Assembly (NCBI RefSeq): GCF_963576615.1 | Contig: NC_088717.1 | Location: 53,572,526-53,636,525 of the forward strand | DNA length: 64,000 nt | Reading direction: 5' to 3' | Source: Watersipora subatra | Lineage: Eukaryota; Bryozoa; Gymnolaemata; Cheilostomatida; Watersiporidae | Shown: positions 292-58,800 of the stretch, in pieces | Position numbering within the stretch: the stretch's first letter is position 1 | Layout: each line of letters opens with the position of its first letter | Program-made: the position numbers and the translations under genes | The notes under the pieces: generated by a model | The model's database searches: none | The model's input: the letters and a program-made list of their open reading frames with translations, nothing else | What the model was told of the DNA's origin: nothing

Positions 292-539
292 ATGAGCTAG
301 TAACTCTTGGAGGTATACTAGTTGCCTGTACATTTACAAATATGCCCTGTTCTTCCGGTGGCAGTGGCTTTGTACTCACTCTTGCTGTCACCCCTTGTCT
401 ATGCACATGCAGCGCTTGGACTAACTGGGGCACCTGCAGCGCAACCTGCGGCTCAACAGCTACACAAACAAGACTACGTACTTGCAATGCTGATTGTTCA
501 GAACCTACTTTCGCAACACAGGCATGTCCGGGTGTACCA
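292..539 (+). CDS. A1 exon: first visible TSP1 module
   Basis: The acceptor is tatttcag at 284-291 and the donor is GTGAGT from 540. The exon begins with two bases completing a split codon and ends in phase 0. Its 248 bases equal the homologous A2 exon (29769-30016). It carries a short beta-like leader followed by the CSAWTNWGTCSATCGS core. The exon is truncated on neither side. Confidence 0.85.
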
Positions 540-3500
540 GTGAGTGTCTTATTTCAGTTTTTCTTCTAGTTGGAAAACTGACTCCCTTGTATTTAGATTT
601 GATGTAACACTATTTTGTTACCCTCACAAGTTTTTTATATGTTTTAGGAACTATGAAAATTATATTCTTAATACATTTCTTTTAAGCTATAATATGTTCA
701 TTTCAGTCTATGTAAATAAACCGCCAAACTTTGTATCATTAATTACATATTATTATATTATAAATACTAATAAGTAGAAAATTTCACTTACCAGCATTGT
801 CAGTGACTGATAGCAGTTTTTAAAAGAGATACTTGCAACAACAGAAAGAAATGTTTGAAAAAACTCTTAATAACTTGCTGACAGACAGTCTGTGGTGCTG
901 ATGGAACGTGGAACACTTGGGATTCATGGAGTACATGCTCAGTGACTTGTGGTGGATCTGCACAAACTCGTGCGCGCACTTGCAACAGACCAATAGGAGG
1001 AGCTGATTGTGTTGGAATTTCATCAGAGACGCAGAACTGCGCAACGGTAGATAAACATTAGAAATACTGAAATGAAATCTTATCCTACCATGATTAAATC
1101 CCTGAGATAAAACTTCTCTCTGAGATTAGTCTAACATTCTATTGCAAATGTGCGATCAGGTTAGTCGAAACTATAGCGGTTAAATTAGTCACAACCTTTT
1201 GTTCTAATTTGCTTGTGTTCTTGTCATGAATCAGTAAATAGCAACTATTATCTGTCTGTTAAGTATTGCGTTTTTGAGTGCCAATATTTTGTATGTTTCT
1301 GCTTCTAAATTTCTTTAAATTTAGTGCACTTGTAAAAATTATACACGAACAATAAGTAGACGGTTTCATTTATCCACAATCTCAGTGACTGATAGCAATT
1401 TTTAAAGGAACTACTTACAACAACTACAAAAGTGTTTAAAAATTTTTTTGAAAATTTGCTGACAGACAGTCTGTGCTGCTGATGGAACGTGGAACACTTG
1501 GGATTCATGGAGTACATGTTTGGTGACTTGCGGTGGATCTACTCAAACTCGCACGCGCACGTGCAACAGGCCAACAGGAGGAGCTGATTGTGTTGGAATT
1601 TCATCAGAGACGCAGAACTGTGGAACCGTAGATATCAAACTTTTCAACTTTTGAAAACTGATCACATGATTCTTGTCACTGAAATGAAAATAAAAAACTG
1701 GGTTCAGTGAAATTTTGATGTAATTTAATAACCATTAGAAATACTGAAATGAAACGTCTTTTCTCTTAGATTATCTTGCAAATGTGATATCAAGTTTGTT
1801 GAAATTATAGCAGTCAAATTATTCACAGTCTTTTGCTCTAATTCGCTCTTTTTTTGTTGAAAATCAGTAAATAGCAATTATTAGCTGGAACAAATATCCT
1901 TTGAGAATATTGTTTCTGAGAGCCAATATTTTGTATGTCTCTGCTCCTATATCTCCTTATATTTAGTGCATGGGTAACAAGCATACATGAACAAATAACT
2001 TGAATGTTTAGGCTAGCTGTCCTGTTTGTACGTGCAACCCGTGGCAGAACTGGTCAGTTTGTTCCGTTTCCTGTGGTGGAAATGCCTTTCGAACGAGGAC
2101 TAGGACCTGCTCTAACTGCGTCACATTCATGCCTGTAATAGAACAAACAGGTGTCTGCCAAGGAGTTGCAGTAAGTACCACTCTGTTGTTGCATTGAATC
2201 TTATCCGTTTGGAGTTTAACAAACTAGCAAAAGTGTGTATTGGTGTCTTTTTAACAACAGTTGTCAGAGGATCAGCAATTAGAAAAAAGATGGCACTGTA
2301 AATTGTCACAATGTTTTCTAAGGGATTGAGTAGTTGTTCTTGTATCAGTTACTTTAAAGGTTGGCTTGCAATAAAATTCACATTACAGTTATTTGGTACC
2401 AAAAGATTCACCATGTCTGACTCTGTAGTGTTGTAAGTGCCAAATATGTGGAAATGTGATTACAAGCTCTTAAAAGCTCAAAAATGAAAAACCGCCGTAC
2501 ATTGGAATCTTTTTATTTCGATGACGTATCCATGAAATTTGGTTATTTTCTTGTCACGTATGTTCTCATGTGAATTGAAAAGCCAATAAAAAGCTCAATG
2601 TAAAACTTATCGTAGCACTAGTTTATGACAAGCACTTCGGGTTTGACCGAAGACCCCGTATCAAATATAGATGCTCACTACTTTACAGTTTTGTTTCGGC
2701 CTGGTCTAATCGGCAAGTCGTAATCTGATCATGTGACCCAATTCTTCGCAAATAGTTTTTGCATTTATGTCATGATTATCAGACAATGATATGTACTCCT
2801 TCAAGCTAAGGCTAAAAAATTAAATGAATTTTTACAGTAAGTTATAAGGTATCACTGCTAAAAGTGACAGCATTACAATGATGATAAAACAGACGCGTAA
2901 GAACAATAGACATGGTTTTATTGAATGCGTGAAGTATATTTGTGAAAATATTTCGACAAATAAGGTTGCATGAAAGTGTAAAGAGAAACCATCTCTCACA
3001 ATTACGTCACATTTGAGCCGTTTTGGAAAGAGAATCCAAACTACGGCGGTTTCGTGTGGCTGCGATTAACTGTTCGTTTTTGAGCTTTTAAGATATTGTA
3101 ATCACATTTCCACATATGTGGCACTTACAACACAACAGAGTAAGACATGGTGAATCTTTTGATACCAAATAACTGTAATGTGAATTTTATTGCAAGTCAA
3201 CCTGTAAGAACACGCAACAGTATGATCTCTCAGAAGTAATTGTATAATTTATTACCCAAAATTCAATTATGAAATAGACTTACTTTTACGTTCACTTGGA
3301 TTATATTAGTGCAAAATTGTTTTAGCTGTTGCAATTGTGAACACAACAAGAAATATGGTTGTGCTCCAAGTAAACAACAGATATCATCAGAATAACTCAA
3401 AAAAAATTACTTTACAAACATATTTTATAAGGTTGATCTTACATGTTTCATTTGCTGTCAGTTTTATATTATAGTCCTAACAATTTTCTACCTGTTTTAC

Positions 3501-4934
3501 ACAACCCAGAGTAGATAAAAGCCAACTGAAAAAAAAAGTTTTTGCTAACGTGGTTTTTAATAAACGCAAACTTGCAAAAGTAAGAAATCTCTTACCTATA
3601 TATATAAATATGAATAGTTTGTCCAGCTACAGCGATTAGCATGTAGCAATGACCAATCAGTATCGCAGGATTTGACCTTGGAACTTCCCGATCACTAGGC
3701 AATTTCTTAACCAATTAAGCTGCGCAAGATGCACTGAATTAGTCGCGCAATATGAGTCGTTTTCAGGGTTGAAATACGCCTAACACTCTGCCTTATGCAA
3801 TGCCACTAAAGCTTGTTTTTACAGATCAAATTAGGAAGTTTACTAGCTCACTCAAATTGGCCATTGGTAATGTGCCAGGCTAATGGCAAGTGGCAGTCAA
3901 CTACATTACCTGCCACTGTTTATAAGCTGTTTTTAGTACTCGTGCAACGTCCGTCATTCAGTTAGTTTTGCCATAGAATGCATGCAAACAGCCCCGTGCT
4001 GAAATGTTTTTAACTCTATTAAATAACTATTAGGCTTAATTTAAAACATTTCATAAAAATAAAATGCAATGGGAGACGTCTCTCCTTTTCTGGAGATGCT
4101 AGTTCAACACTTATTACATCAAAGATCTATTAAAGCTTTACACTATTACTTGTACTTAAACAGGCAGAGTGTCCAATGGATGGAATGTGGACACAGTGGG
4201 ACAACTGGAGCACATGTCCGGTAACCTGTGGAAGTTCAAGCCAATCTAGAATGAGAATCTGCACTGATCCAACCGCAGGAGGTCAAGATTGCCCCGGTTC
4301 ATCACAAGAAAGCAGACCCTGTAACCAGGTATGCAAGAAACAGATTCATACAGGAGTATTGTTGTAGGATAATCTTCTAAGAAAAAATTTATTGTGCACA
4401 AACTAAAACATCTTTTGCAAACGTTGTTTTTAAAAAAAACTTATTATAAAGTAAATGTACATTGCTGTTCCAAGTACGCTAACATCACAAACTAATGCTC
4501 TCAGAGTCTCTAGCTACTATACGATACTTTACAAGATGACTTCTAACACACTTGACTGGTACCTTGGTTTCATTGCAAATCTACAGCAGAACTAGAACTT
4601 GCTCTGTATTAGATATGAAAGTTTTTGTAGGAACAATAGACAGCATCTACATGTACATGTATATAATATTCAAACGAATAATATAGCCTTACAATTATGA
4701 TCTCATACTGCTTCAGTAGCTTCATACATAAACAAAAATTTGTTGAAGAACTTTTGCTAAATTACGTTTGTTTCTAATACGCAGGCTGCTTGTCCAAATC
4801 CAACATTTCCTCCCGGTCGCCGAGGCAACAGAAGGCGGGGTGGAAGGAGGAGACGAAACAGAAATAGAGGAAGGCGGAGAGGATGCAGAGCTACAGCTTT
4901 ACGGAGAGCTTGCAGAAGTGCTAGAAGAGGTTGA
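292..4934 (+). CDS. A1: secreted TSP1-repeat protein, 5'-incomplete, premature stop in tail
   Basis: Six exons are visible: 292-539, 885-1046, 1466-1627, 2012-2170, 4164-4328 and 4785-4934, all GT-AG and in continuous frame. They encode five TSP1 modules, with motifs such as WTNWGTCSATCG, WNTWDSWSTCSVTCGG and WTQWDNWSTCPVTCG (WxxW C-mannosylation-type Trp plus six Cys), then a basic tail. Exons 885-1046 and 1466-1627 are tandem duplicates. The tail stops at TGA 4932-4934, where paralogue A2 has an Arg codon; beyond it the frame still reads ARAACIARQCG and a TAA, so about 12 residues including two Cys are lost. Exons corresponding to A2's first four would lie left of the window. TSP1 modules are normally extracellular, binding glycans or matrix; the specific role is unknown. 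The gene may be functional with a shortened tail or an early-stage pseudogene; I saw no other lesion. Confidence 0.82.
885..1046 (+). CDS. A1 exon: TSP1 module, tandem copy a
   Basis: The acceptor is gctgacag before 885 and the donor is GTAGAT. The exon is 162 bases with phase 0 at both ends. It reads TVCGADGTWNTWDSWSTC and onward, with six Cys. A second acceptor-like cag four bases downstream would break the frame, so 885 is preferred. It is a near-duplicate of 1466-1627. Confidence 0.85.
1466..1627 (+). CDS. A1 exon: TSP1 module, tandem copy b
   Basis: Same length, phase, acceptor context and donor (GTAGAT) as 885-1046, with a few substitutions such as TVCAADGTW in place of TVCGADGTW. A2 has only one such exon (29260-29421). 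Flanking intron sequence is duplicated with it. Confidence 0.85.
2012..2170 (+). CDS. A1 exon: TSP1 module
   Basis: Acceptor tgtttag, donor GTAAGT; 159 bases, phase 0-0. It reads ASCPVCTCNPWQNWSVCSV and onward. The A2 counterpart is 28742-28900, same length. The spacing after the third Cys differs from the other modules (CSNCVTFMPV), so this is a divergent TSP1. Confidence 0.85.
2358..3203. mobile_element. TTAA-flanked long-inverted-repeat element, copy C1
   Basis: The start (aggttggcttgcaataaaa) and the end are reverse complements for roughly 190 bp, imperfectly. The left flank is TTAA (2354-2357); the right flank is degenerate (GTAA, 3204-3207). No transposase frame is visible, so it is non-autonomous. 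It sits in an A1 intron. Further copies are at 53094-53967 and 56489-57366, with a fragment at 27317-27495. Confidence 0.8.
3600..3990 (-). mobile_element. tRNA-headed SINE-like repeat, copy E1
   Basis: Read on the minus strand, 3740-3650 resembles a tRNA gene with an A-box-like AGCTTAATTGGTTAAG and a B-box-like GGTCAAATCC. The segment 3765-3985 is homologous to 11735-12045 (shared ggcaagtggca, caactacattacctgc and tgtttataagctg). It lies in an A1 intron. The SINE call rests on the promoter-like boxes. Confidence 0.5.
4164..4328 (+). CDS. A1 exon: last TSP1 module
   Basis: Acceptor ttaaacag, donor GTATGC; 165 bases, phase 0-0. It reads AECPMDGMWTQWDNWSTC and onward. The A2 counterpart is 27814-27978, same length and over 90% similar by eye. 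Confidence 0.87.
4785..4934 (+). CDS. A1 terminal exon: Arg-rich tail, truncated by TGA
   Basis: Acceptor tacgcag. It encodes AACPNPTFPPGRRGNRRRGG and further Arg/Gly/Asn-rich residues, then stops at 4932-4934. Homology to the A2 terminal exon continues past the stop to a TAA at 4968-4970, so the stop is a nonsense change. No canonical AATAAA is seen just downstream. An acidic open frame (4768-4983) on the same strand is the wrong frame. Confidence 0.82.
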   Translation, partial: AACPNPTFPPGRRGNRRRGGRRRRNRNRGRRRGCRATALRRACRSARRG

Positions 4935-5329
4935 GCAAGAGCAGCCTGCATTGCTAGACAGTGTGGATAACCTAAAACTTTAGTTGTAAAATATAGCAAA
5001 TATTCAGTACAAATTTCAAGAGTAAAATAATATTTTACTTTTAGATTTTTACTCTTGAAATACTATATTATAGTAGACATGTGGTGAGGATTTTTAATAT
5101 TACTACACTCTAATGTTTTAGCATCTTACATTTAAGTTTATATAAAGTATATCATTAATAGTATCCATCACCTTAACATATCTTAAGGTGATGGTATAAA
5201 ATATTTCTATTTTGAACTTTTATGAAGTTAGTTTTTAACGACGCATGAAACCAATAATTATTGCTTATATTACTACAAAATTTGCAATATTAAAGAATTT
5301 ACTATACATAGCTTGAGAATGTTTACTTT
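4935..5329. other. A1 3' flank
   Basis: AT-rich sequence colinear (inverted) with 26490-26760. A small palindrome (caccttaacatatcttaaggtg) lies near 5168-5190. There is no gene. Confidence 0.6.
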
Positions 5330-5520
5330 TTTCTGAACATTACATCTACACACTTACTCTTCACTGAACATTATTACATCTACATACTTACTCTTTACTG
5401 AACATTACATCTACACACTTACACTTTACTAAAGATTTCCTCTACAAACTTACTCTTTACTGAACATTACATCTACACATTTACTCTTTACTGAACATTA
5501 CCTTTACATACTTACACCAT
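5330..5520. repeat. 31-bp-type minisatellite, short array (~6 copies)
   Basis: Repeats of ctgaacattacatctacaca with cttactcttta. This is the reverse complement of the ~49-copy array at 33425-34960. The unique-looking flank (5520-5625) also matches 33330-33410 inverted, so the two loci share an origin. Confidence 0.8.
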
Positions 5521-26761: not shown

Positions 26762-26947
26762 TTATCCACACTGTCTAGCAATGCAAGCTGCTCTTGCACG
26801 ACCTCTTCTAGCACTTCTGCAAGCTCCACGTAAGGCTATAGCTCTGCATCCTCTCTGCCTTCCTCTGCTCCTGTTTCCTCTCCTTCTTCCACCCCGTCTT
26901 CTGTTGCCACGGCGAGGTGGAGGAAATGTTGGAATTGGACAAACAGC
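26762..26947 (-). CDS. A2 terminal exon: Arg-rich Cys-containing tail
   Basis: Acceptor aatttgcag; stop TAA at 26764-26762. It begins AVCPIPTFPPPRRGNRRRGG and ends ARAACIARQCG. Five Cys are spread among Arg clusters, more like a disulfide-linked cationic peptide than a typical intracellular RGG domain. Confidence 0.87.
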   Translation of the reverse strand, partial: AVCPIPTFPPPRRGNRRRGGRRRGNRSRGRQRGCRAIALRGACRSARRGRARAACIARQCG

Positions 26948-29900
26948 CTGCAAATTAGAAACATTAAACCTAATTTAGCAAGGTTTTCTCAATAAATATT
27001 TGTTTTCAAGTATGAAGCTATTGAAACAGTATGATACCATAATTTTAAGGCTAAATTATTTGTTGTACAAAATTTCACCTACTGAATTAACAATTCTAAA
27101 ATATTATATGCATTTTATATACATGTAGATACTGTCTATTGTTCCTACACAAACTTTCATATCTAAGACAGAGCAGGTTCTGCTAATTTTGCTTGTACTA
27201 TTGTATAATGTATAAACATGCTCACAACTATTTGCAGCTCTTTCATCCCTTGTGAGCTCTAATTATTTGTGTACTGATCAGCATGTCAGTAAGATCAGTG
27301 CTAAGGAAGAGGTCTAAAGGTTGACTTGCAACAAAATTCACATTACAGTTATTTGGCGTCAAAAGATTCACCATGTTTTACTTTGCTGTGTAGAAAGTGC
27401 AAATATGTGGAAATGTGATTACAAGCTCTTCAAAGCTCAAAAACGAACAGTTAATCGCCACCATCACGAAACCGCCGTAGATCAGAATTATTAGGTTGAA
27501 AGTTTATGTCAAGGATTTTAGAAAAAATTATTTTACCTGATGATAAGCTTAAATGTGACACTTTTCATTATTATCAATGAGGGCAAGGTACTAGTCAATT
27601 GTGTTAGAATTCATCTTGTCAAGTATGGTATAATAACTGAAGACTTTAAGAGTGTTTGAGACACTAAAGTACTTGGAACAGCAATGTACATTTACCTTAT
27701 TATAAGTTTTTTTAATTCTGTCTGAAAAATGTGTTTCAGTCTGTAAGCAAAAAGATTGTTTTTGGATAATCATCTTGCAATAATACCTATGTATGTAACT
27801 CCCTATTAAATACCTGGTTACAAGGTCTGCTTTCTTGTGTTAAGCCGGGACAATCTTGACCTCCTGCTGTTGGATCAGTACAGATTCTCATTCTAGATTG
27901 GCTTGAACCTCCACAGGTTACTGGACATGCATTCCAGTTGTTCCACTGTGTCCACATTCCATCCATAGGACACTCTGCCTGTTCAAGTATTGTGTAACGC
28001 TCTAATATATCTTCGATACAATAAACGTTGAACTGGCAGTTCCAGAAAAGGAGAGATATCTCCCATTTGTGATTTATTTTCATGAGGTGTTTAAAATTAG
28101 ACCTATTAACTATTTAACGGAGTTAAAGAGCCTTCAGCACAGCAGTGTTTTTTACATTTACAAGTTTGCAATTACTAAAAGCTATATTAGCTAAAAAATA
28201 ATTTTTTTCAGGTAACTATTAATAGTAGATAGATACTTACTCTGGATTGTATAAAACAAGTAAACAATTATCAGGACTAAAATATAATGAACAGCAAATG
28301 AAGGCAGCAAATATAAGGCAGCAAATGAACAACCTTATAAAATATGTTTGTAAAGTAATTATTTTTTGGTTATTCTGATCATATCTGTTGTTTGTTTGGT
28401 GCACAACCACATTTCTTGTTGTGTTCACAATTGCAGCATCTAAAGCAATTTTGAACTAATGTAATGCGAGTGAATGTAAATGTAAATTTCTTTCGTAATT
28501 GCATTTTGGGTAATCAAGTATACACTCACTTTTGAAAGATCATACTATCGTGAAAAACAGCTGCTACAAGAACATAGCTACTTAAAACCGTCAGAAAACA
28601 TTTTGAAAATTTACCGTGCCATATTTTTCCTAAATACTGATCCACTGAAAATTGCTGTTAAAAAACCACCAACATAAAATGCTGCCGATGTGGTGATTTC
28701 TAAACTGATAAGATTCAATGCAACAACAGAGTGGTACTTACTGCAACTCCTTGGCAGACACCTGTTTGTTCAAGTACAGGCATGAAAGTGACGCAGTTAG
28801 AGCAGGTCCTAGTCCTTGTTCGAAAAGCATTTCCACCACAGGAAACAGAACATACGGACCAGTTCTGCCATGGGTTGCACATACAAGCAGGGCAGTTAGC
28901 CTAAACATTCAAGTTCTTTGTTAATGTATGCTTGATGCCCGTGCACTAAATATAAGGAGATATAGGAGCAGAGACATACAAAATATTGGCACTCAGAAGC
29001 AATATTCTCAAAAGTTATTTGCTCCAGGTAACAGTTGCTATTTACTGATTTTCAACAAAAACGCAAGCAAAATAGAATTAATCTCAGAGAAAAGAGGTTT
29101 CGTTTCAACATTTTAATCATGGTAGGGAAAGGTTTCATGTCGGTATTTGTAATGGTTTTTAAATTGCATCAAAGTTCTACACAATCCTGTTATTTATTTT
29201 TATTTTAGTGACAAGTATCAGAGGGTTAATTTTTAAAAGTAAAAGAATTTTATAGCTACCGTTCCACAGTTCTGTGTCTCTGATGAACTTCCAACACAAT
29301 CGGCTCCTCCTGTTGGTCTATTACAGGTGCGTGTGCGAGTTTGGGTAGATCCACCGCAAGTCACCGAGCATGTACTCCATGAACCCCAAGTGTTCCATGT
29401 TCCATCAGCGCCACAGACTGTCTATCAGAAAAAAATTTTAAAAAATTTCAAACATTTCTCTACGCTGTTGCAAGTAGCTACTTTAAAAATTACTATCAGT
29501 CACTGAGATTGCAGATAAGTGAAACCATCTACTTATTAGTATTTATAATATAATAATATGTGATTGATTATAATACAAAGTTTGGCTTTTTTTCCCATAT
29601 AGTGAAATAAACTTGTTATTTTGAAGGATGTGTATTAAAAATATAATTTTCCTTGGTTCAAAAACATATATCAAAAATTTGCAAATGCAGCACAAAAGTG
29701 TTACTCCAAATCTAAATACAAGGGATTCAGTTGGTCAACTAGCGGATAGACAGATATAAGACACTTACCGGTACACCGGGACAAGCTTGTGTTGAAGAAG
29801 TAGGGTCTAAACAGCCAACATTGCAAGTACGTGTTCTTGTTTGTACAGCTGTTGAGCCACAGGTTGCACTGCAGCCGCCCCAGTTAGACCAGGCGCCACA

Positions 29901-30904
29901 TGCACATGGACAACTCGTGACAGTGAGAGAGAGTACAAAGCCATTACCACCGGAAGAACAGGCCGTTGATGAAAATGTACAGGCAACTGATTTACCACCG
30001 AGAGATAGTGTCGCAGCTAAAATGGGTGCAGGAAAAATTAACGCTGATCTTTATATACTATATTATTCATTTTACGCAAAAAGTATCATGCTTCTATGTT
30101 GTCACTTTGCATAGTTATATTTTTATATGATGAACCATTGTAAAAGAAAATTTTATAGGTTTTAAAACACAGCATTCTATTAATCGGTTAGCGAAATTAA
30201 CAGAATTTCATCTCATTACCAGATGTTTTTGTAAATGGTTCCCATTGGTTATATTTATTTACTGTTTCTATATTTATAGCTGTGGATTAGTGTACACTTA
30301 TCAACTATATAGTGTATAGTATACTTACTAGAAGCAGCTGAGGCACTATCTTGAACCCCAAACTGATAGGAGCTTCCTCCAAGCAATGGAGTTGGTGAGC
30401 AAATAGTTTGTCCAACGCTAAAGGGAACTACAGGAGTTCCTAAAACAGGTCAGACCTCAGTTGCGATGCTTCACATGAGACACATTAACAAAGAGCACGC
30501 TTTTAGGTTTTAAAAAAATGGTATAAAATTTATTCCTAACAAATATGATGATAAAACATAGCAGCATTCTAGACAGTAGTTAGGTCCCGCAGTAGTCTGT
30601 CAGTTATGTTGGAATAATAAAAACCAAAAAACTCAAAGGCAAAGTTCTACTAAAGTAAAAGTCGTAAAGCCCAATTTAGATTTGCAACTCTTCAATAATC
30701 AGATTTTTTAAGCTTTAGTTGGGAATATGAAAAAAGAACAAAAACCAAACAGGGTACAGACTAATCAATAGAACCACAATTTCACAGTCACTGAAGCTTC
30801 TATCGGATAAGGGGTTGGAGAGAAAACTGGACCGCTACTGAGATTCGAAATTAGTCAAGAACTGGTGGACGATCCTAAACATCAATGTGGTAACCAGTGT
30901 GCTA

Positions 30905-30987
<83 letters not shown>

Positions 30988-33900
30988 AAATTCCTAAGAA
31001 TTATGGGCTAGTATTACTAAAATTAGAGTGCTCAACAAATATATTGGAGCAGCTATATACTAATAAATCATTTAAAAGCAATACTTATCTTTTTTCAGCT
31101 AAGAAGTATTGCTTTTAAATGATTTATTAGTATATATATATATAAATATATATATCTTGGCACACTGGTTGTATATAAATATATATGTGTGTAAGTGAGT
31201 AGGTGAGAACCAGACAGCAATACCAGAATGCACTGTGCTTGTGGCAAATGTGCTGAATTTCTTTAACGCTAAACGTTTATCTCCTCCTTCCTTGACTTAA
31301 TATATTAGTATTTGTAAATATTTAGTGTTGTAATGCTATAAAATACATTTTAAATCGATATAACACAGCGCAATGCAATTCAATGTAATGTAACGCAATG
31401 CAGTACAGCATGAGGCTATACAACACAATGTTATGCAATGTTGTAAAGTGCTGTAATGCAATGCGGTATAAGGCCATGCAGTGTAGTTCAAAGTAGTGCA
31501 GTGCAATATAATGCAACGCAAATGCAATGCAACTTGATTCAATGCATTTATTGTAATACAATGCATATATAATGCAATATGGTTCAATTTAGTGTCATGC
31601 AATCAAATCTAGTGTATTTTAGGGCAATTTAATGCAATACACAAATCAATGTAATTTAATGCATTTTTATGCACCTTAATATCATTCAAAAAATATGCTA
31701 TGGTTTGATGTGATTTTATGAAATGTAGTGTGGTGTAATATGCTATGGTTTGATGTGATTTTATGAAATGTAGTGTGGTGTAATATGCTATGGTTTGATG
31801 TGATTTCATGAAATGTAGTGTGGTGTAATGTAGTGTGGTGTAATGTAGTGTGGTGTAATGTAGTGTGGTGTAATGTAGTGTGGTGTAATGTAGTGTGGTG
31901 AAATGTAGTGTGGTGAAATGTAGTGTGGTGTAATGTAGTGTGGTGTAATGTAGTGTGGTGTAATGTAGTGTGGTGTAATGTAGTGTGGTGTAATGTAGTG
32001 TGGTGTAATGTAGTGTGGTGTAATGTAGTGTGGTGTAATGTAGTGTGGTGTAATGTAGTGTGGTGTAATGTAGTGTGGTGTAATGTAGTGTGGTGCAATG
32101 TAGTGTGGTGTAATAAAATGCAATACAATGAAAGATGATCTAATATAAAGGGAAGGCTATGAGGTGCAGTATGATGTGGTTTAATAGATATCAGTGTAAG
32201 GTAATGTAATTCAGTATAATTTACTGGATTTTGATGTGATTTCATGTAATTGAATGCAGTGTAATGCATTGTAATGCAATGTAACACAAATTAAAGCAAT
32301 GCAACACAATATAATACAATGTGATGCAGTATGACATAATTTAATGTCTTTTAATGTAGTTCTATACAACTTACTGCAACAAAATTAAATTTAATGCATT
32401 TCAATGCCTTATGATACATTGCAACAATGCGATGTAATAGGGTGTACTGCAATGCAATGTAATGCTGTGTAATGCAGTGAAATGCATTGTGATAAAGTGC
32501 AATGCAATGTAATTTGATGCAATACATCACCATGCATTGTATTAAAATGTAATTTGGTGTTATGAGGGTGGCGATCAACTGATCATTGTACACTATTGAG
32601 ATATACCAAAGGCCAGTGACAAAGAATAGTATGGCTAAATAATAATGGTGTATAGATAGATACAAAGACTTGATTAAATGACAACTCTAAAAGACTCGAT
32701 TAATGAGTTGAGGTAGATGATGAAACAGGAAAAAAACTTTTGGTGACTAGGAGAGTTAGCAAGAGAGAAGCAGATGAATAGGCTGTGATGGCAGAGCGCA
32801 GAGACCAGGATCGGCTGCCTAGTTAACCCAAGAACTGACACTATAGCTGGGCTGAGTCTTGACCCAGCGGGAGACTTGGTAGTAGGTGAGTCAACTCGGC
32901 CTTTAAAGAGGAGCAGACAAAGAGATCGGGAGGAGCAGACAAACAGACCCATTGACTAATAGGATTGAGAAGCGGAGCCTAACGAGTGAAAGCCTAATAA
33001 GTGAAAGCACCTATAAAATGAGACAGAAGATTGCAAGAGACAGAGATAGTTGGCAGTCTCTTACATGTTGTTCTGATGTATGTGCACACACTGATCACAT
33101 TTATTTATATATATTCATAAGATATGTATTTGTCTTATTTGTTGCACTCAGTGTCTTTAATCATGTTGAACAGTAAAGGAAACCAGCAGTTTCTCTACTA
33201 GGTACTAAAACGAGCTTCTTACCTAATAGATTTTGTTTGAGAAATGCTTGTAGACAGTTCTGAAAGTTACATGATAAAACTACTTAAAGATAACAGCACT
33301 TGTACGTACAGCCTGTTTGTTGATTACATAAACGTAAATCAGCGAGGTCATGAGAAGTCAAAGGTAGCCAATGAAATGACTGTGTAGACAAGCTTCGATA
33401 CAGGGGCTGATTACGGAATAACCGTGTAGAGATGATATTCAGTAAAGAGTAAGTGTTTAGGGATAATGTTCAGTAAAAAGTAAGTGTGTAGAAATAATAT
33501 TCAGAGAAGAGTAAGTGTGTAGAGATAATGTTCAGTAAAGAGTAAGTGTGTAAAGGAAATGTTCAGTAAAGATTAAGTGTGTAGAGATAATGTTCAGTGA
33601 AGAGTAAGTGTGTAGAGATAATGTTCAGTAAAGAGTAAGTGTATAGAGATAATTTTCAGTAAAGAATAAGTGTGTAGAGAAAATGTTCAGTTTAGAGTAA
33701 GTTTGTAGAGATAGTGTTGAGTAAAGAGTGAGTGTGTAGAGATAATGTTCAGTAAAAAGTAAGTGTGTAGAGGTAATGTTCAGTAAATAGTAAGTGTATT
33801 GAGATAATGTTCAGTGAATAGTAAGTGTGTAGAAATAATGTTCAGAGAAGAGTAAGTGTGTAGATGTAATGTTCAGTAAAGAGTAAGTGTGTAGAGATAA

Positions 33901-36900
33901 TGTTAAGTAAAGAGTAAGTGAGTAGAGATAATGTTAAGTAAAGAGTAAGTGTGTAGAGATAATGTTCAGTAAAGAGTAAGTGTGTAGATGTAATGTTAAG
34001 TAAAGAGTAAGTGTGTAGAGATAATGTTCAGTAAAGAATAGGTGTGTAGAGAAAATGTTCAGTATAGAGTAAGTTTGTAGAGATAGTGTTGAGTAAAGAG
34101 TGAGTGTGTAGAGATAATGTTCAGTAAAAAGTAAGTGTGTAGAGGTAATGTTCAGTAAATAGTAAGTGTATTGAGATAATGTTCAGTAAATAGTAAGTGT
34201 GTAGAGATAATATTCAGTAAATAGTAAATGTGTAGAGATAATGTTCAGTAAAGAGTAAGTGTGTAGATGTAATGTTCAGTAAATAGTAAGTGTATTGAGA
34301 TAATGTCCAGTAACTAGTAAGTGTATTGAGATAATGTTAAGTAAAGAGTAAGTGAGTAGAGATAATGCTCAGTAAATAGTAAGTGTGTAGAGATAATGTT
34401 CAGTAAAGACTAAGTGTGTAGAGGAAATGTTCAGAAAAGAGTATGTGTGTAGAGATAATGTTTAGCAAAGAGTAAGTGTGTAGAGATATTGTTCAGTAAA
34501 TAGTAAGTGTGTAGAGATAATGTTCAGTAAAGAGTAAGTTTGAAGAGATAATATTCAGTAAATAGTAAGTGTGTAGAGATAATGTTCAGTAAAGAGTAAG
34601 TGTGTAGATGTAATGTTCAGTATATAGTAAGTGTATTGAGATAATGTTCAGTAAATAGTAAGTTTGAAGAGATAATATTCAGTAAAGAGTAAGTGTGTAA
34701 AGATAATGTTCAGTAAATAGTAAGTGTGTAGATATAATATTTAGTAAAGAGTAAGTGTGTAGATGTAATGTTCAGTAAATAGTAAGCGTGTAGAGATAAT
34801 ATTCAGTAAAGAGTAAGTGTGTAGAGATAATGTTCAGTAAAGAATAAGTTTGAAGAGATAATGTTCCGTAAAGAGTAAGTGTGTAGAGATAATGTTCAGT
34901 AAAGAGTAAGTGTGTAGAGGTAATGTTCAGTAAAAAGTCAATGTGTAGAGATAATGTTCAGACCTTGTTTAGTTATTACTTGCTAATGAATTCACATTTG
35001 CATTTAAATACCTTTACAAATGTTTATTTTTTCTCTCAATTTATTTGAACTTCACAAAACATTCTTCTCGTGAGAGTAAGTTTGAAAGTTAGAATGATAA
35101 CTGTTTTTATATATTAAATTAAAGTAAATTGTCTGTGCAAAGACTTTATTACCCGCAACACCAATCATCAACCTAGTAAAGATAAACTCAAAAGATTTGT
35201 TTGAATCTCAATTTTGTTATATCTCACATTAGGTGTAATCTCGGAGATGTCTGGGATTTATTTAATTTTTAAGCTAAGATTGGTGGGGGCATAAGAGTCT
35301 GGTTCACAAGAACTGTAGAGCTTTGAAATCAAAATATTTTTAGCAACCTGCTGTAGAGCAGAGTATGTACGTGCGAAGTTTGGATGAAGTTGAAAAAAAA
35401 ATGCGGGAGCACCGCATTTACATGGGCTAACAGCCAGACACACAAAACACGTGCAGCGTGCACTACAAACATACATACCACACACGGCACACACTGCGTT
35501 CACCGCACGCACCACATACACACCACATACCCCTCACACACATACACGCACGCACGCACACACACTACACACAGGCACACATACACCCACAAAAATAGAG
35601 TTTATTTTTATAGGTCATAAAGTGAAACCTACATCATATTTTGCACTCTATCCCATTATGTTTTATTGTATCAATGTGTAATATTAATACGTGTAATGCC
35701 TCATGTGGTCTTACCAGCATTTGCGCAGCCTGATGTGATGTCTGTGGTAATTTGGGAGCAAGAAGTATGAGTGATGCAGACCGTCTCTCTCTGTCCAAAA
35801 GCATTACACGCCGAAGATTCTAGGTAGGTAACACAACTCTGGACATCAGCGCATGATGTCACTATAAAACAACAATGCAAGTATCTGTTGCACATCTACT
35901 ATTACGTCTATATATTGCTACAACATCTACGCAGCTTACAACTTGCTTTACCCAAAAACCTTATTTTTTACTCTTATCAGGTATGAGGTATTTTAATTTT
36001 TGTTAGAAAAATAATGCTTTCACCTTGACCCTGAGTTCACCCTGATATGTGGCAAAACAGCATACTACCCAAGTATGTTTAAAGTGAAGTAGCAGCTACA
36101 GGGTTGAATACATTTTAATATTTTAACATATATAGCTTGTTATATTTGTAGCAAATTATTTACAATCATACCTACATTTAAGAAAATTGAGATACAAGAA
36201 GAGTTTTAAGCAAGTTTAAACTTTAACATACGAGTAATCTTGGAGATACAAGCCGGTTGTTGATGGGCATTATATTTCTAAGTGAACAAGAGGCCGCTTT
36301 GAAAAACTGCATCACTTACGTCTTTCTCCTCAAATCAGTTTGAACAGTTTTTAAAAGGTCGGCTAAATGTTATAGTGAGCACGAGGCAAAAAGTGCCAAA
36401 CCAAAAACAGATAATGTAACGGCTAAGACGACAAAATTAAAGTAAGTATAGAAAATGTTTAAAACTTAACTTTAGGTGTTCAGTACGTTAAACTAATTTA
36501 AACTAAATTCAAAGTTTTTGTTGCTGTCAAGTCTCTCAAATTGCCGTTAATTACTACGTTTGTCTTGCAGGTAAAAACTTACAGTAGTGTGCATAGTAAT
36601 GTTCCATGCGTGCATAGTAATGTTCCATTTTTTTGAAGGCTTTAACTGCTAAATTAATATATTGTCACTTTGTTAGCATAGGTACTGAGTTACAACTGTT
36701 AAAAACATTTTTTCCACCGCAATATCTTGTTTTATGTGGTCTTTCATAGCAGGGTAATGGATTAATTTGTATTTAGTTGTTGTATATAAAGAATAGTGCC
36801 TTAAGACACAAGTGAAGTGGCGTATGAGCTCTGTCCAAGAACGTTTTAAAATAGTATGTCGAGGCATGATTGTAGCTCAAATCTGTTTTAGGCTATACTT

Positions 36901-37550
36901 TTAAAAGCTAAATTGAGAATTGCCAAATTCTACAAAAACTTAAATGTGTGATCTGTTTGTCTCATAATATATGTCAAAACAGTGTTAGTACAATACAATA
37001 TCAACTTACATTGGCCATGGCAGCAGTCGAGTCCAAAAACCAGAAAACCTACAACAATGTAAATGCAAGCATTGTTAGCTTGGTATAACCTGTGTAATAT
37101 ATAGTAGTTATATTGTCAATAGAACTACTAGATATAGAAATTCATATTAGTTATATATATTCTATAGTTTCTATATATTAGGCAATGTATAGAAATATAT
37201 TGCCCAGAATATTTGTAATTATCTTCTCACACATACGACAAACATAATTTTCTATTTCATGACACTAAAACACTACATCCATCATCATTTGTTTCATTTT
37301 ATGAACTTTCAGTTACTACAACCTACAGTTCACTCTCTCAACTTTTACGCAATACTTTTAGACTACTAAGTAGTAAAACACTTTTTTTCAACTCGGTCAA
37401 TAATTCCTTATTTCTGTTTGTCATTTTTCTGTCAGTATGTAGCGAAAAACATCATTTTTATGATTAACATTGCTAATGGTAAATTTTAACTACACATGCT
37501 AAAATGCAATAAATCTCACCAATAGCTAAAAGACAAGTAAACCTCCCCAT
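26762..37550 (-). CDS. A2: complete secreted protein, Cys-rich module + four TSP1 repeats + Arg-rich tail
   Basis: Nine exons on the minus strand: 37550-37520, 37048-37010, 35861-35715, 30439-30329, 30016-29769, 29421-29260, 28900-28742, 27978-27814 and 26947-26762. They total 1,248 bases (415 codons plus stop), every junction is GT-AG and phases join without error. Protein order: signal peptide (about residues 1-23; MGRFTCLLAIG then FLVFGLDCCHGQ), Cys-rich module, Ser/Gly/Pro linker, four TSP1 modules with WxxW motifs, and a 61-residue tail with about 20 Arg, five Cys, no Lys and no acidic residue. Predicted to be secreted; TSP1 repeats commonly bind glycosaminoglycans or matrix, and the cationic tail could bind anionic surfaces or nucleic acid, which is inference. 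It is the intact paralogue of A1 (tail to tail) and is divergent from B. A TATA-like motif lies upstream. I know no named family with this exact architecture. Confidence 0.87.
27317..27495 (+). mobile_element. TTAA-type long-inverted-repeat element, fragment C4
   Basis: Only one end of family C is present (aaaggttgacttgcaacaaa through to accgccgtagatcagaatt). It lies in a different A2 intron from the one C1 occupies in A1, so it is an independent insertion. Confidence 0.75.
27814..27978 (-). CDS. A2 exon: last TSP1 module
   Basis: 165 bases, phase 0-0; AECPMDGMWTQWNNWNACPV and onward with six Cys. A methionine inside this exon opens a spurious frame at its 5' side (up to 28083), which is intron read-through. 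Confidence 0.87.
28742..28900 (-). CDS. A2 exon: divergent TSP1 module
   Basis: 159 bases, phase 0-0; acceptor tgtttag, donor GTAAGT. ANCPACMCNPWQNWSVCSV and onward. Nearly identical to A1 2012-2170. Confidence 0.86.
29260..29421 (-). CDS. A2 exon: TSP1 module, single copy
   Basis: 162 bases, phase 0-0; acceptor ctgatag, donor GTAGCT. TVCGADGTWNTWGSWSTCSV and onward. It corresponds to both tandem exons of A1. Confidence 0.86.
29769..30016 (-). CDS. A2 exon: first TSP1 module
   Basis: 248 bases; acceptor cattttag, donor GTAAGT. It starts in a split codon and ends in phase 0. Leader ATLSLGGKSVACTF precedes the TSP1 core CGAWSNWGGCSATCGS. Same length as the A1 exon 292-539. Confidence 0.86.
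30329..30439 (-). CDS. A2 exon 4: linker
   Basis: 111 bases; acceptor tgttttag, donor GTAAGT. It encodes TPVVPFSVGQTICSPTPLLG and GSSYQFGVQDSASAAS, a low-complexity linker with one Cys. Supported by phase fit with the neighbouring exons; no A1 copy is in the window to compare. Confidence 0.75.
30440..30890. other. A2 intron 3, proximal part
   Basis: Nothing recognised. Confidence 0.5.
30891..31165. repeat. Nested palindrome around (AT)n
   Basis: Outer inverted ends ccagtgtgctaagatatata and atatatcttggcacactgg enclose a pure (AT)n tract (30907-30980) and an inner hairpin of about 32 bp per arm (actaataaatcatttaaaag at 31058 onward, complement at 31113 onward). Confidence 0.8.
31320..32560. 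repeat. Pentamer-derived satellite with a 15-bp core array
   Basis: The core 31808-32113 is about 20 copies of taatgtagtgtggtg. It is preceded by a 45-bp derived unit repeated at 31690-31808 and flanked on both sides by diverged aatgcaatgtaatg-type sequence. The 15-bp period leaves several frames open, giving a false 201-codon frame. Confidence 0.93.
32690..33240 (+). other. GC-richer repeat, possibly an LTR remnant
   Basis: It contains tcaactcggcctttaaagag and a TATA-like ctataaaatgaga near 33010. A related segment is at 59400-59990 on the other strand (gactcggcctttgaaagag). No TG...CA ends or target duplication were fixed. It lies in A2 intron 3. Confidence 0.3.
33425..34960. repeat. 31-bp minisatellite, ~49 copies
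   Basis: Unit agtaagtgtgtagagataat followed by gttcagtaaag, with many substitutions. It sits in A2 intron 3. The array and its left flank are the inverted homologue of the short array at 5330-5520. Confidence 0.94.
34968..35160 (-). repeat. Dispersed repeat family B, copy 4
   Basis: Fragment with ttattacttgctaat, tttatttgaacttcacaaaa and a truncated head (gactttattacccgcaacac). Confidence 0.6.
35440..35595. repeat. Degenerate (CA)n microsatellite
   Basis: Cac/aca-rich tract with cgcacg and taca interruptions. The Thr/His frames through it are artefacts. Confidence 0.85.
35715..35861 (-). CDS. A2 exon 3: Cys-rich N-terminal module
   Basis: 147 bases, entered after one base of a codon and left after one base (2 + 48 codons + 1). 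It encodes TSCADVQSCVTYLESSACNA, FGQRETVCITHTSCSQITT and DITSGCANA. Gene B exon 3 has the same phases and a similar Cys/Gly-Arg pattern. I know of no named domain that matches. Confidence 0.8.
35862..37009. other. A2 intron 2
   Basis: Nothing recognised except short duplicated phrases such as gtgcatagtaatgttccat (twice, about 36590-36630). Confidence 0.5.
37010..37048 (-). CDS. A2 exon 2: second half of signal peptide
   Basis: 39 bases; acceptor ttgttgtag, donor GTAAGT. FLVFGLDCCHGQ completes a hydrophobic leader. Phase pattern (2 + 12 codons + 1) matches gene B exon 2. Confidence 0.75.
37520..37550 (-). CDS. A2 exon 1: start codon and first half of signal peptide
   Basis: 31 bases from ATG at 37550; MGRFTCLLAI plus one base, donor GTGAGA. 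Gene B exon 1 is also exactly 31 bases with one base left over. An upstream ATG in another frame lies near 37596 and may be outside the transcript. Confidence 0.75.
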
Positions 37551-44819: not shown

Positions 44820-45830
44820 CTATCGAGATCCTAGATTGTATCTCAACAGGAAAGATGGCGATAGGGGACTCAAAAGTTTACAGCAGACAGTGAAAGAGTA
44901 AGAACAAAGCATCAAAGCCTATACAGACTCCATGGCCACTTCAGATAAGTTGCTAGCTGAATTTCAATCGGCTGCTTTGACAATGGAGCTTCGCCCTGAT
45001 GATGAGGAAATTGGCTGATACACGAAACCTCTTCATGGTCCTTACCACTGACAAATATCTAAGGTTGGCGATCTTCACCAGACATATATGTGGCTGAACA
45101 AAGGAAACCTAACAGCCAATACAGAGTCGCTACTCATGGCAGCCCAGGAGCAAGTGCTCCCAACAAGGCAACTCCAAACAAAAATCTATCACACTAGAGA
45201 CGATCCTAGATGCAGACTGTGCAAAGATGCACCTAACACCATCCAACACATCATCAGTGGATGCAAGCAGCTAACAGGAAACGCATACACTGAGCGACAT
45301 AATCATGTTGCAGGTGTTGTGTATAGAAGTCTATGTGATGAGTATAGCTTTAATAAACCACAACACTGGTGGGAAGCTTCTGGTAAGGTCAATGAAAATT
45401 ACTGCGCTAAGATCCTCTGGGACTTCTACATCCGGAATGACAAGCATGTTCTAGCAAACCAACCAGATAAAGTGGCGGTGGACAAAGAGAACAAGAGGGC
45501 TACTATAATAGATATAGCAGTACCCATTGACTACAATATAGCCAGCAAAGAAAAAGAAAAGGTAGAGAAATATCTCCCTTTTGGAGAATAGATTGAAAAA
45601 TGCTGGGATGTAAGAACAACTGTAATTCTATTAGGCATTGGGGCACCGGCGCATAAAATGTGGCTTGCCCAGATACCGACAGCAATCAACTCAGGTGAGT
45701 TGCAGAAAAGTGTTCTATTGAGAACAGCTAAGATCTTGAGGTGAGTGCTCAAACTCCCAGGTCTCTGGTAGGAGACCCGAGTTAGAGCAGAGCTTACCAC
45801 CCATACGGGTTAACTGGGGTGATGAAACAA
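44820..45830 (+). pseudogene. R2-type (RLE) non-LTR retrotransposon, 3' part of the ORF
   Basis: A degenerate reading starts at about 44830 (YLNRKDGDRGLKSLQQTVK); an intact stretch 45088-45591 continues with a zinc-binding motif (CRLCKDAPNTIQHIISGC) and a restriction-like endonuclease motif (QPDKVAVDKENKRATIIDIA, a PD followed by a D about 14 residues on). A TAG at 45589-45591 interrupts; homology continues through IEKCWDVRTTVI, AHKMWLAQIPTAINSGELQK and LKLPGLW. It ends near gatgaaacaatttatatata with a TA tract. 5'-truncated, as is usual for non-LTR elements; the exact clade is not determined. Confidence 0.75.
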
Positions 45831-52240: not shown

Positions 52241-53089
52241 ATAACACAAATTAGACACCTACCATCATAGCAAGGCTCTCTACCAGACAGATAAGACTAA
52301 GTTTTATACATGTTTATTAAAAGCCTCTCAGAAAAAATATATGAAGTATAAATTTTTATTGTTTTTGTTCCTTCTTGGTGTGTGATGTGAGAATTTTAGA
52401 GACTTCTAGAAGAACTGTTATTTTCATAGTGCTCTTCATAGCAAAACTAAATGTAGGTTGCCTTACGCCATTTTAATTTCTACAATGATGCCTTCATATA
52501 CTGTTGATTAAATATCTGTGCTGCTTCTATTTGCCTTATTATGCCTGCATTGCTAAAAGTTTCAGGGCAGAATGTGTTGCGTTCTATAAATATGTGTTTA
52601 ATGGATGCAAGTACAGAAAAATATTACTGTTTGTATTTAAGTTTTTCTATCAAACTCACTTAAATCATTTATGACAAGCAAACAATTGCCCAGCTTTAAC
52701 TAGACTATATAGTGTAGCTAATGCTGGGAAACATTTTTTCCATGCTTGCCTACAATAAACACATATTTATAGACAGCAACACATCTTGACCTGAAGTTTT
52801 TTAGCAATGCAGGTAATTAAAAATGAGGTCCAATGTTATTAGTTTCTTTAGTTAGCACATTTACCTTACATGTAAGTCATACTCTAAGGAAAGTGGTGGT
52901 ATAAAGGAACGCGGAATGATTGTAACAATTAAAACTCAGTAATGATGGTAATAGAATGGTTTTTAGCAGTCAGAGAAATTACTGTTTGAAGAATATATTG
53001 TGATTTAAAGTTATATTTTGTGCCAAATTTAGCAAAATATGTCGATTATGCGTTTTTCATACCTCCTTTAGTTTGTATTCATTACATGC
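52241..53089. other. Unrecognised non-coding sequence
   Basis: No coding signal or known repeat seen. Confidence 0.45.
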
Positions 53090-53093
53090 TTAA

Positions 53094-53967
53094 AGGTTGA
53101 CTTGCAACAAAATTCCCATTACAATTATTTGGTATCAAAAGATTCACCATGTCTTACTCTGCTGTGTTGTAGGTGCAAAATATGTGGAAATGTGATTACA
53201 AGCTCATAAAAGCTCAAAAACGAACAGTTAATCGCAGTCACACGAGACCGCCATAGATTAGAATATTTTTCAAAATGGCTTAAATGTTACGTAGTTGTAC
53301 AAGATGGCTTCTGTTTACACTTTCACGCAACCTCATTCGTCGATATATTTTCATAAATATACTTCACGCATTCAACAAAACCATGTCTATTGTTCTTACG
53401 TGTCTATTTTATTGCCATTGTAATGCTGTCTCTTATAGGACTGACATCTTATAACCTACCGTGAAAATTCGTTTAATATTTTAACCTTAGCTCAAAGGAT
53501 TATATATCATTGTCTGATAAACATGATGAGCCTGTTAGTCACCTGTGATAATCGAAAAATTCTGCAGAAATTATTCGCGAAGTATGGATCACATGATCAG
53601 ATTACAACTAGACGATTAGACTAAGCCGAAACAAAACTGTAAAGTAGCGAGCATCTATATTTGATACAGAGTCTTCAGTAAAACCCGAAGTGTTTGTCAT
53701 AAACTAGTGCTACGAGAAGTTTTATATTGAGCCTTTTATTGGCCTTTCAATTTACGTGACAACATCACGTGTCAAAACAATAACCAAATGGATTTAGTAC
53801 GTCAGAGAAATAAACTGATTCCGATCTACGACGGCTTTTCGTTTTTGAGCTCTAAGAGCTTGTAATCACATTACTACATATTTTGCACCTACAACACAGC
53901 CGAGTAAGACATGGTGAATCTTTTGATACCAAATAATTGTAATGTGAATTTTGTTGCAAGTCAACTT
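53094..53967. mobile_element. TTAA-flanked long-inverted-repeat element, copy C2
   Basis: Starts aggttgacttgcaacaaaat, ends with its reverse complement; TTAA at 53090-53093 and 53968-53971. Same family as C1 and C3. Confidence 0.88.
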
Positions 53968-53971
53968 TTAA

Positions 53972-54480
53972 AAGACAACGATGCTGACTTTGCTCTGTTT
54001 ATAAAAAAAGCTATCAGTAAACCCAGTGATGCCTGAGATTCATTTCATTATTAACCAGATTGCCCACAGTTGGAAGCTCAGAAAGCTGGTTCCCAAGAGC
54101 CAAATGAAGGTTTGAACCCAACCATTTTAGTGATAGTGAAGTTTTATATTTTAGTGAAATATGGATGGAACAGGCAAAAAATGGAAATGAATAGCATTTA
54201 CACAGACTAACAGACAGACAGACTAACAGACAGACACACAATGTTAATGTAGGAATTATTAATATAGATGTTAGTTCTGTCACACAATCGGTTATGGACA
54301 GCAATCATTTTTGTAGAGATGTAGCCAGGAGTCAGGTCATGTGATTATACCCGCTATCGGATAACCATAAAAACCGGTACGACCTGTCTAGTAGGTTGAG
54401 AGGTCAGCGAATAAACTTACCACCAGGCCTTCAAGCCTGATGGGTGAACTGGACATCCTGACATTTGTCACAGGTCTGTG
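53972..54480. other. Unrecognised non-coding sequence
   Basis: aaacttaccaccaggccttc and gatgggtgaactgg near 54413-54453 vaguely resemble the 3' end of the R2-type element (gcttaccacccatacgggtt), so a retroelement tail is possible. Confidence 0.35.
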
Positions 54481-55890: not shown

Positions 55891-58800
55891 GTAAGGTCAG
55901 TTCGTTGGTTTGTGAGAAATACTGTGAATCATTGAAAACATACATATAGTATTAAGTACTTGTAAGTAAATTAATGTGGTTCAATTTTAAAAGAATTTTT
56001 GTTGACCCAAAATAGATGCAGATATAATTAATCTATCTGATGCATTATTGATATGTTACGCATACTGTTCTTACATTACTGAAATGTATATACTGCAGGT
56101 CTGTATCTGGTGTGGTGGACCACAGGACAGGGTGAGTTAAATTCAAATGTATATGTATATATACTTACACATGTACATTTATGTGTAAATGTGCATATAT
56201 TTATAATTATAGATATATAAATACAGTGAACTTATGAAACTGAAATCAGAGTGCTCAATGCATAAAGCAAAGCTAAAACTAAAATATTACAGGAAAAACG
56301 TGTGTCTGAGTTCAAATCAATTTATTAGTAAATAGTTTTATGCCTCTGCGAGGCAATTATCAGATAAAATGACTTTGTTCAATAAAAGCAGTAAATATAC
56401 ACAGGGTGTAGTCACAAGCATACAGATTAAAACTAAAGCTGAATCAGGAAATAAGTTGGTAGGAGCTAAGTTACACTACTGTTCTTAAAGGTTGACTTGC
56501 AACAAAATTCACATTACAGTTATTTGGTATCAAAAGATTCACCATGTCTTACTCTGTTGTGTGGTAGGTGTCAAATACGTAGAAATGTGATTACCAGCTC
56601 TTAAAAGCTCAAAAACGAAATGCCACCGTAGATTGGAATCTGTTTATTTATCTGACGTAGTCATTCCAATTTGGTTATCGTCTTGTCATGTATGTTCTCA
56701 CGTGAATTGAAAGGTCAATAAAAAGCTTAATGTAAAACTTATCATAGCACTAGTTTATGACAAACACTTCGGGCTTTACCAAAGACCCCATATCAAATAT
56801 AGATGCTCGCTACTTTACAGTTTTCTTTCGGCATTATTTAATCGTCAAGTCGTAATATGATCATGTGACCCAATACTTCGTAAATAATTTTTGCAGCTCT
56901 TTTCGATTATCACAGGTAACCAACAGGCTCATCATGATTATCAGACAATGATATATACTTCTTCGAGGTAAGGTTAAAAAGTTTAACGATTTTTTACGGT
57001 AAGTTATAAAATATCAGTGCTAAAAGTGACAGCATTACAACGGCGATAAAACAGACACGTAAAAACAATAGACATGGTTTTATTGAATGCGTAAAGTATA
57101 TTTGTGAAAATATTTCGACGAATGAGGTTGCATGAAAGTGTAAACAGAAACCATCCTGTAACAACTACGTCCCATTTGAGCCGTTTTGGAAAGCGAATCC
57201 AAACTAGGGCGGTCTCGTGTGGCTGCGATTAACTGTTCGTTTTTGAGCTTTTAAGAGCTTGTAATCACATTTCCATATATTTTGCACCTACAACACAACA
57301 GAGTAAGACATGGCGAATCTTATGATACCAAATAACTGTAATGTGAATTTTGTTGCAAGTCAACCTTTAAGCAGGTATTTGGCCGCTTGTCTACATGTAG
57401 AGACAAGTTCATTTCGCTTATTTAGGGACGACATGTCAGGCTTGCATAATATGAAAAAATTTTCCCATATACATAGATTGCATTTATTAGTTGCACTGCT
57501 GTATGCATTGGCTTGTTTCAGTAGCTTCCACTTAATTGAGTAATGGGTGTTAGTGTTTTTCAGCTGCCAAATATATTTACTGAGTTCAGTGCTCAGCTTT
57601 CTTGCCTCGTTTCAAAAGGTTGCAGTATGATTGTTGTATCGGGCCTTAAACTGACCTTCTGTTAGCCCTACATAAGTTTTATCAGTATTTTCTGCTGTTA
57701 CTGCATGTGGCTTGATATATGCAAGATGATGTTAGGCATTTCTCATTGAGGGGGCAGTTAGCTTTGACTTTGCAGTTGCACTGTCTGATGTGATGGTCGT
57801 TGTTGTTAGTTGACAGTAGTCGAGAGTTGTGTGCACTTATAATGTTCTTTATGCTAGTGCAGCAACTATAGCTGACCTTGATGTAACTACGATTAAAGAT
57901 CTTATGGAGCTCGTGGTGCTGGGGGAATTCTATTTATGCAAATGTTCCACCTTCTATCAACAAGAGACTAAGACGCCGTTATATAATTTTTTCACCTTAC
58001 AAAGTGAACCACGATATTTTGCCATCCTCGCCATACAAAAACAATAGATTTTTGACTTTTTTCTCCAAACAATATCAACAAAAAGTTCTTTCGGAATTAA
58101 AATTTGGCAGTCGGTATGCTGATTACATGGAAATAATGATGATGCCGATATGTTATTCACCAAAATTTCTCTCACAACGCCTAAAAGAGGCGTTGTAAGA
58201 GGGAGTTCAGTAAATAGGATGTGTTCAAACTTTCAAACTTCATATCATAAAAAAAGAGTTTTGTGCAATTGAAATAAATTAATAGAAAAATAAAACAACT
58301 GTAAAAGTGTTCAAGTGCAAATGTGAAATAATCAGCATTTAATGGCTAAATAAAGTCTGTTTTGCTACGATAACAATAAGAAATGACTTTGGTAATAATA
58401 CTATTAATACAAACTGAGAAAAAAAATAAAAATCATGAATATGTTAACTAATAATAACAATGAGTACATAGAAGTGTATGTGTATAAAAAATGTTACTGT
58501 TGCAGCAGAAGCCATTCATCAAAAATTTGAATACGACGATACTGGTACCGCTAGATACTGGTACCGCTAGATACTGGTACCGCTAGATACTGGTACCGCT
58601 AGATACTGGTACCGCTAGATACTGGTACCGCTAGATACTGGTACCGCTAGATACTGGTACCGCTAGATACTGGTACCGCTAGATACTGGTACCGCTAGAT
58701 ACTGGTACCGCTAGATACTGGTACCGCTAGATACTGGTACCGCTAGATACTGGTACCGCTAGATACTGGTACCGCTAGATACTGGTACCGCTAGATACTG

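Follow-up and report, generated by a model that had tools for sequence, protein, structure and literature searches.

A gene cluster encoding predicted secreted TSP1-repeat proteins with a basic, four-cysteine C-terminal tail in Watersipora subatra

The window analysed here, a stretch of 64,000 nucleotides (C10:53572526-53636525) from a genome searched over 784 Mb and 239 contigs, holds a nine-exon gene, A2, and part of a paralog, A1, which tblastn of the A2 product on the window placed at its left end (Table 1). The joined A2 exons comprise 1248 nt, or 416 codons (415 residues and a stop), with AG/GT at all internal borders, bearing out the original prediction that nine exons join to 416 codons. 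The product consists, in order, of a signal peptide (hydropathy peak of 2.96 over ten residues from position 6), an N-terminal Cys-rich part, four thrombospondin type 1 (TSP1) repeats and a basic tail. Extracellular animal proteins commonly contain such repeats; for the whole A2 product, TSP1-type profiles were the only ones that Pfam returned, with four TSP_1 stretches and a score of 85 bits for PF00090 (curated cut-off, 21.6). The WxxW motif expected in each TSP1 repeat is present in all four. The O-fucosylation consensus C-x2-3-[ST]-C-x2-G, which marks a modification site and is unnecessary for TSP1 membership, occurs in none of the four A2 repeats, all of which read C-x-x-[ST]-C-G.

Table 1 Coordinates (positions in the window) of the A2 gene, its associated elements and the part of A1 inside the window
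Feature	Position	Strand	Remark
TATA-like element, 5' of A2 start codon	37609..37619	-	Identical in B0 and A1; one base off in B1
A2 exon 1	37520..37550	-	Start codon and beginning of signal peptide; length and donor equal in B0, B1 and A1
A2 exon 2	37010..37048	-	Remaining signal peptide, residues 11-24
A2 exon 3	35715..35861	-	N-terminal Cys module, six Cys
A2 exon 4	30329..30439	-	N-terminal region, second part
A2 exon 5	29769..30016	-	TSP1 repeat 1, preceded by the last part of the N-terminal region
A2 exon 6	29260..29421	-	TSP1 repeat 2; exon present as two tandem copies in B0, B1 and A1
A2 exon 7	28742..28900	-	TSP1 repeat 3
A2 exon 8	27814..27978	-	TSP1 repeat 4
A2 exon 9	26762..26947	-	Completes TSP1 repeat 4 (last Cys); then Arg-rich linker, four-Cys basic module and stop
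A2 four-Cys basic module	26765..26851	-	Residues 387-415
A1 exon 5	292..539	+	A1 exons 1-4 fall outside the window, to its left
A1 exon 6, first copy	885..1046	+	
A1 exon 6, second copy	1466..1627	+	
A1 exon 7	2012..2170	+	
A1 exon 8	4164..4328	+	
A1 tail exon	4785..4970	+	In-frame TGA at 4932-4934

Two further copies of the gene, B0 and B1, lie to the left of the window. Across A2, B0, B1 and A1, exons 1-9 have equal lengths, no indels and conserved splice sites, and 44 of the 45 Cys columns are invariant (the exception lies in the signal peptide, and two of the A1 columns fall beyond an in-frame TGA). A1 and A2 form a facing inverted duplication, with aligned blocks ~72-82% identical outside mobile and satellite sequence and TSP1 exons 6-8 88-92% identical; the upstream flank of A2 is 79-84% identical to those of B0, B1 and A1. 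Two departures from a uniform cluster were found. The repeat-2 exon is doubled in tandem in B0, B1 and A1 (162 nt each, in frame), so these three genes carry five TSP1 repeats and A2 four; the four repeats originally predicted thus describe A2 but not the cluster. In A1, a TGA at codon 50 of the 61 in the tail removes the last two Cys, whereas the tail exon is intact in A2, B0 and B1. Because three cluster genes share exon lengths and splice sites with no indels, the A2 model is beyond chance, and the exon lengths, splice sites, frame and flanks kept in the paralogs support it strongly, independently of RNA data. Judged from these features, A2 is a genuine animal gene for a predicted secreted, adhesive-type protein with a basic, Cys-bearing tail.

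A mobile element of ~0.9 kb with inverted ends of ~135 bp is present in three copies that are 83-88% alike (2354-3208, 53089-53972 and 56485-57371), one of them in an A1 intron, while A2 intron 8 contains a single isolated end (27315-27480). A transposase-like frame on the minus strand (7098-7532; weak DDE_3 match below the curated cut-off) is adjoined by a frame that appears by eye to continue it (6910-7188), and a retrotransposon-like frame lies on the plus strand (45052-45588; weak zf-RVT match below the curated cut-off). Within A2 intron 3, a 31-bp satellite occupies 33424-34961, its unit recurs as a short array on the opposite strand downstream of A1 (5323-5515), and a 17-bp tandem array (61735-64000) reaches the right end of the window. 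Scans of the window for tRNAs and for Rfam families (at gathering thresholds) each returned no hits.

Lys, Asp and Glu are absent from the last 61 residues of A2, which include 20 Arg and 5 Cys. The intron preceding exon 9 interrupts TSP1 repeat 4 immediately before its final Cys; the first of these five Cys therefore completes that repeat and the tail has four of its own. An Arg-rich tail with five Cys and neither Lys nor acidic residues had been described from A2; those counts stand for A2, but the tail's own Cys number four, and distant members of the family use Lys. The tail carries a charge of about +20 (pI 12), as against -2.5 (pI 5.3) for the body of the protein (residues 23-357). The four Cys lie in a module of ~29 residues at the extreme C-terminus, with a charge of about +8 in A2. 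AlphaFold2 models of the window's two tail frames (mean pLDDT 59) gave a linker without regular structure and two helices around the four Cys (35-43 and 51-61 of 62 residues), a low-confidence hint only.

Both the tail and the TSP1 repeats are under constraint in the cluster. Estimates of dN/dS from the six pairs among the four paralogs, which are not independent of one another, were 0.16 for TSP1 repeats 2-4 (bootstrap range 0.09-0.27), 0.35 for the tail (0.15-0.77; P(w>=1) 0.004), 0.64 for exon 3 (0.34-1.27), 0.67 for TSP1 repeat 1 (0.28-1.68) and 1.09 for exon 4 plus the beginning of exon 5 (0.63-2.10), where the exon 4 value rests on few synonymous changes (dS 0.114). The N-terminal values near 1 may reflect relaxation. 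AGA and AGG, a single transition away from Lys, account for 15 of the 20 Arg codons in the A2 tail, yet the four cluster tails contain no Lys, Asp or Glu codon. In neutral simulations from A2, amino-acid changes as few as those observed arose with P of 0.057 for B0 and 0.0065 for B1, so the B0 pair taken by itself does not show significant constraint on the tail at the 5% level; retention of all four Cys with no Lys, acidic residue or stop had P of 0.053 (B0) and 0.023 (B1).

The tail also recurs outside the cluster. A genome-wide search for TSP1 repeats gave 160 matches, and 17 loci, drawn from the best hits among the matches listed and mostly on C10, were fetched and examined: the four cluster genes, L015, L017, L019, L021, L023, L024 and L026-L031 on C10, and L032 on C7 (matches on C1, C2, C4, C5, C6 and C8, others on C7 and some on C10 were left aside). 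A basic tail frame lies behind the last TSP1 repeat at 15 of the 17, all on C10, the link between tail and repeats outside the cluster resting on position and a shared start of the frame; L017 showed no tail in the bases fetched, and L032 has no such tail. Nine loci have an intact four-Cys module (A2, B0, B1, L015 and L027-L031); it is cut in A1 and half present in L026, and at 15.5-15.8 Mb a group of four loci (L019, L021, L023 and L024) has long R/Q/G-rich tails that stop before the missing module. Given these full or partial losses, the module is dispensable in some members. A relict of it can be read by eye past the stop at L019.

In the nine intact tails the module reads C-x8-C-x10/11-C-x4-C and ends at the stop or within 3 residues of it, and each row of the alignment has the four Cys, one Ala and many Arg or Lys. 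The pattern occurred 9 times in the 247 kb of fetched loci (8 in tails and 1, at L032, unrelated), whereas 20 two-base-block shuffles averaged 0.25; its one occurrence in the window is that in A2. Lys is absent from the near paralogs, appears once in the L027 module and replaces Arg in L030 and L031, an exchange suggesting that charge, rather than one particular sequence, matters.

Genome-wide tblastn with the A2 tail returned five places, a decayed copy in addition to the four cluster genes, and tblastn with the L028 module returned four, all on C10 and each at an examined TSP1 locus; such searches miss diverged copies (the L028 query missed the cluster, L015 and L031), and neither recovered all nine modules. 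The decayed fifth tail (L039, C10:53527812-53527934, minus strand) has an open four-Cys part and an exon start with a stop and a frame change. The N-terminal part of A2 matched the four cluster genes and, weakly, L015 (E 0.14). An exon-3-like module (28% identity to A2 exon 3), four TSP1 repeats and the tail follow in the same order at L015, with 28-61% identity per matched exon, and counterparts of exons 1, 2 and 4 were not identified there. Some distant loci have two TSP1 repeat frames; by eye, an exon-3-like frame was seen in L026 and frames like the start of exon 5 in L026, L028, L029 and L030. A tree of the last TSP1 repeats had no starred branch and required three changes of the intact-module label, a history that fits one origin of the module with subsequent losses but does not establish it.

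Searches with the pieces of the product and the tail covered Pfam, NCBIfam and PDB sequences (PHROGs and PADLOC were outside their scope). Pfam contained no family for A2 residues 1-148 at E 1, no hit up to E 10 for exon 3 or for exons 4-5 up to repeat 1, and no hit for the tail; a profile of the module matched no PDB sequence, and module members searched singly at E 1 matched nothing in Pfam (7 and 9 members) or NCBIfam (9 members). Similarities of the tail to a ribosomal protein (E 3.6) and of exon 3 to CS2-hydrolase (E 1.4) were at chance level and were set aside. In exon 3, spacing among the first four Cys is roughly ShKT-like; the last Cys spacings differ and Pfam gave no hit up to E 10, so an ShKT assignment was rejected. 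In prokaryotic and viral collections, the TSP1 alignment yielded 43 and 76 pattern stretches, respectively, and no relative, and among titles and abstract openings in the literature no such protein was named, which is not proof of absence from print. The profile searches thus placed the whole product in no characterised family and, with a tail that recurs and is constrained, the initial suggestion of an unnamed architecture and a new-looking family has held up.

Known TSP1 proteins offer partial parallels. Tandem TSP1 repeats with WxxW link A2 to properdin and thrombospondin-1, which are among its best PDB sequence matches; those matches run through the TSP1 repeats only, no other domain of either protein was found in A2, and the basic Cys tail and the unmatched N-terminal region set A2 apart from both. 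Properdin has six to seven TSP1 repeats and an N-terminal TB-like domain, in contrast to the four repeats of A2 and its N-terminal region without a match. R-spondins bind LGR and ZNRF3/RNF43 receptors, and their tail assists binding to heparin/heparan sulfate proteoglycans. Passages of one R-spondin paper describe proteins that join a Cys-rich part to a TSP1 repeat and a basic tail, with binding of heparin or heparan sulfate proteoglycans by the TSP1 domain (PMC6971977). On that description, RSPO1-4 and A2 have in common a Cys-rich N-terminal part, TSP1, a basic C-terminal tail and secretion, which for A2 is predicted. The last 58 residues of A2 contain 20 Arg and no acidic residue, in keeping with a basic tail of this kind. 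Unlike R-spondins, however, A2 yielded no furin-like repeats, their hallmark, in Pfam, and its cluster has four or five TSP1 repeats instead of one and a conserved four-Cys module in the tail; on the first of these differences, together with the four repeats of A2, membership was rejected. Straightforward membership of A2 in one of the known TSP1 families (properdin, thrombospondin, spondin or R-spondin) is very unlikely on this evidence: the PDB sequence hits to thrombospondin-1, properdin and others that favour it arise via the TSP1 repeats, and TSP1-type profiles were the only ones for the product, with none for its other pieces.

In our best reading, by analogy, the A2 family would work like an R-spondin without being one. 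We infer secretion, disulfide pairing, polyanion binding and the roles of the modules, and consider it about an even chance that these are secreted TSP1 proteins held on an anionic matrix by a disulfide-braced basic tail, with the repeats as a stalk and the N-terminus binding a target. The family would comprise tandem and dispersed secreted animal proteins in which a fast-changing Cys-rich N-terminal region precedes the TSP1 repeats and the basic tail. The module, which follows a disordered basic linker, may fold as two short disulfide-linked helices. Anchoring on anionic polymers (mucins, sulfated glycosaminoglycans or another matrix) would fall to the tail, with the TSP1 repeats serving as a spacer and stalk for adhesion and the N-terminal region binding a variable target, meeting changing partners. 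A body of pI 5.3 with a tail of pI 12, the exchange of Arg and Lys, and a variable linker together suggest that selection keeps positive charge on a small disulfide scaffold, and matrix anchoring would be the plainest use of scaffolded positive charge in a secreted TSP1 protein. The linkers differ strongly between members, in the manner of low-complexity sequence, which counts against such an anchor, as does the partial or complete loss of the module in A1, L026 and the 15.5-15.8 Mb group. A bolder version, which we put forward tentatively and think probably overreaches, holds that the module is an undescribed domain, a disulfide-braced basic helical hairpin, by which a TSP1 stalk became a polyanion-anchored and diversifying recognition family. 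Such a family would have a fast-changing N-terminal sensor, would have lost its anchor repeatedly and might serve innate immunity or mucosal defence.

Other readings of the tail were weighed against matrix anchoring. One takes it for a chance open frame in purine-rich DNA at the end of the gene, an artefact that the AGA/AGG-rich DNA, the stop in A1 and the P value of 0.057 for the B0 pair might suggest; but acceptor, frame, length and four Cys are equal in B0, B1 and A2, dN/dS is well under 1 (0.35, P(w>=1) 0.004), the B1 pair gives P = 0.0065 and the module recurs in diverged loci, so that paralog conservation, neutral simulation and dN/dS leave this account scarcely credible, and we treat it as ruled out. 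The tail could instead be cleaved after secretion to free a cationic, disulfide-braced peptide of ~29 residues, antimicrobial or signalling, with the TSP1 part as its carrier. Compactness, C-terminal position and a charge of about +8 suit such a peptide, R-x-x-R occurs six times in A2 (with four starts in the linker and two in the module), and a fast-changing N-terminal region would be fitting for a defence protein; yet A2 contains no R-x-[RK]-R site, the module has no PDB sequence or Pfam match, and several members lack the full module yet have a basic tail, which fits an anchor better. We regard release of a peptide as unlikely, though a serious alternative.

The proteins might also be structural components of a secreted material (an adhesive, mucus, thread or mineral matrix) whose basic tails cross-bridge anionic partners. 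Flatworm adhesives carry TSP1 repeats, and the R/Q/G repeat tails of the 15.5-15.8 Mb group resemble structural low-complexity sequence. The term thrombospondin type 1 occurs once in each of two papers on flatworm adhesion (PMC6410801, PMC8621496). Fast change limited to the N-terminal part would be unexpected for a bulk structural protein, however, and the genes have no tie to gland or matrix here; this role, too, seems improbable to us.

How a secreted TSP1 protein is retained can seldom be read from its sequence. A compact basic Cys module at the end of the protein, which diverged paralogs have kept while swapping Arg and Lys and which others have lost, would represent a new anchor or, should the tail be released, a new cationic peptide, and this set of paralogs supplies natural pairs with and without the module.
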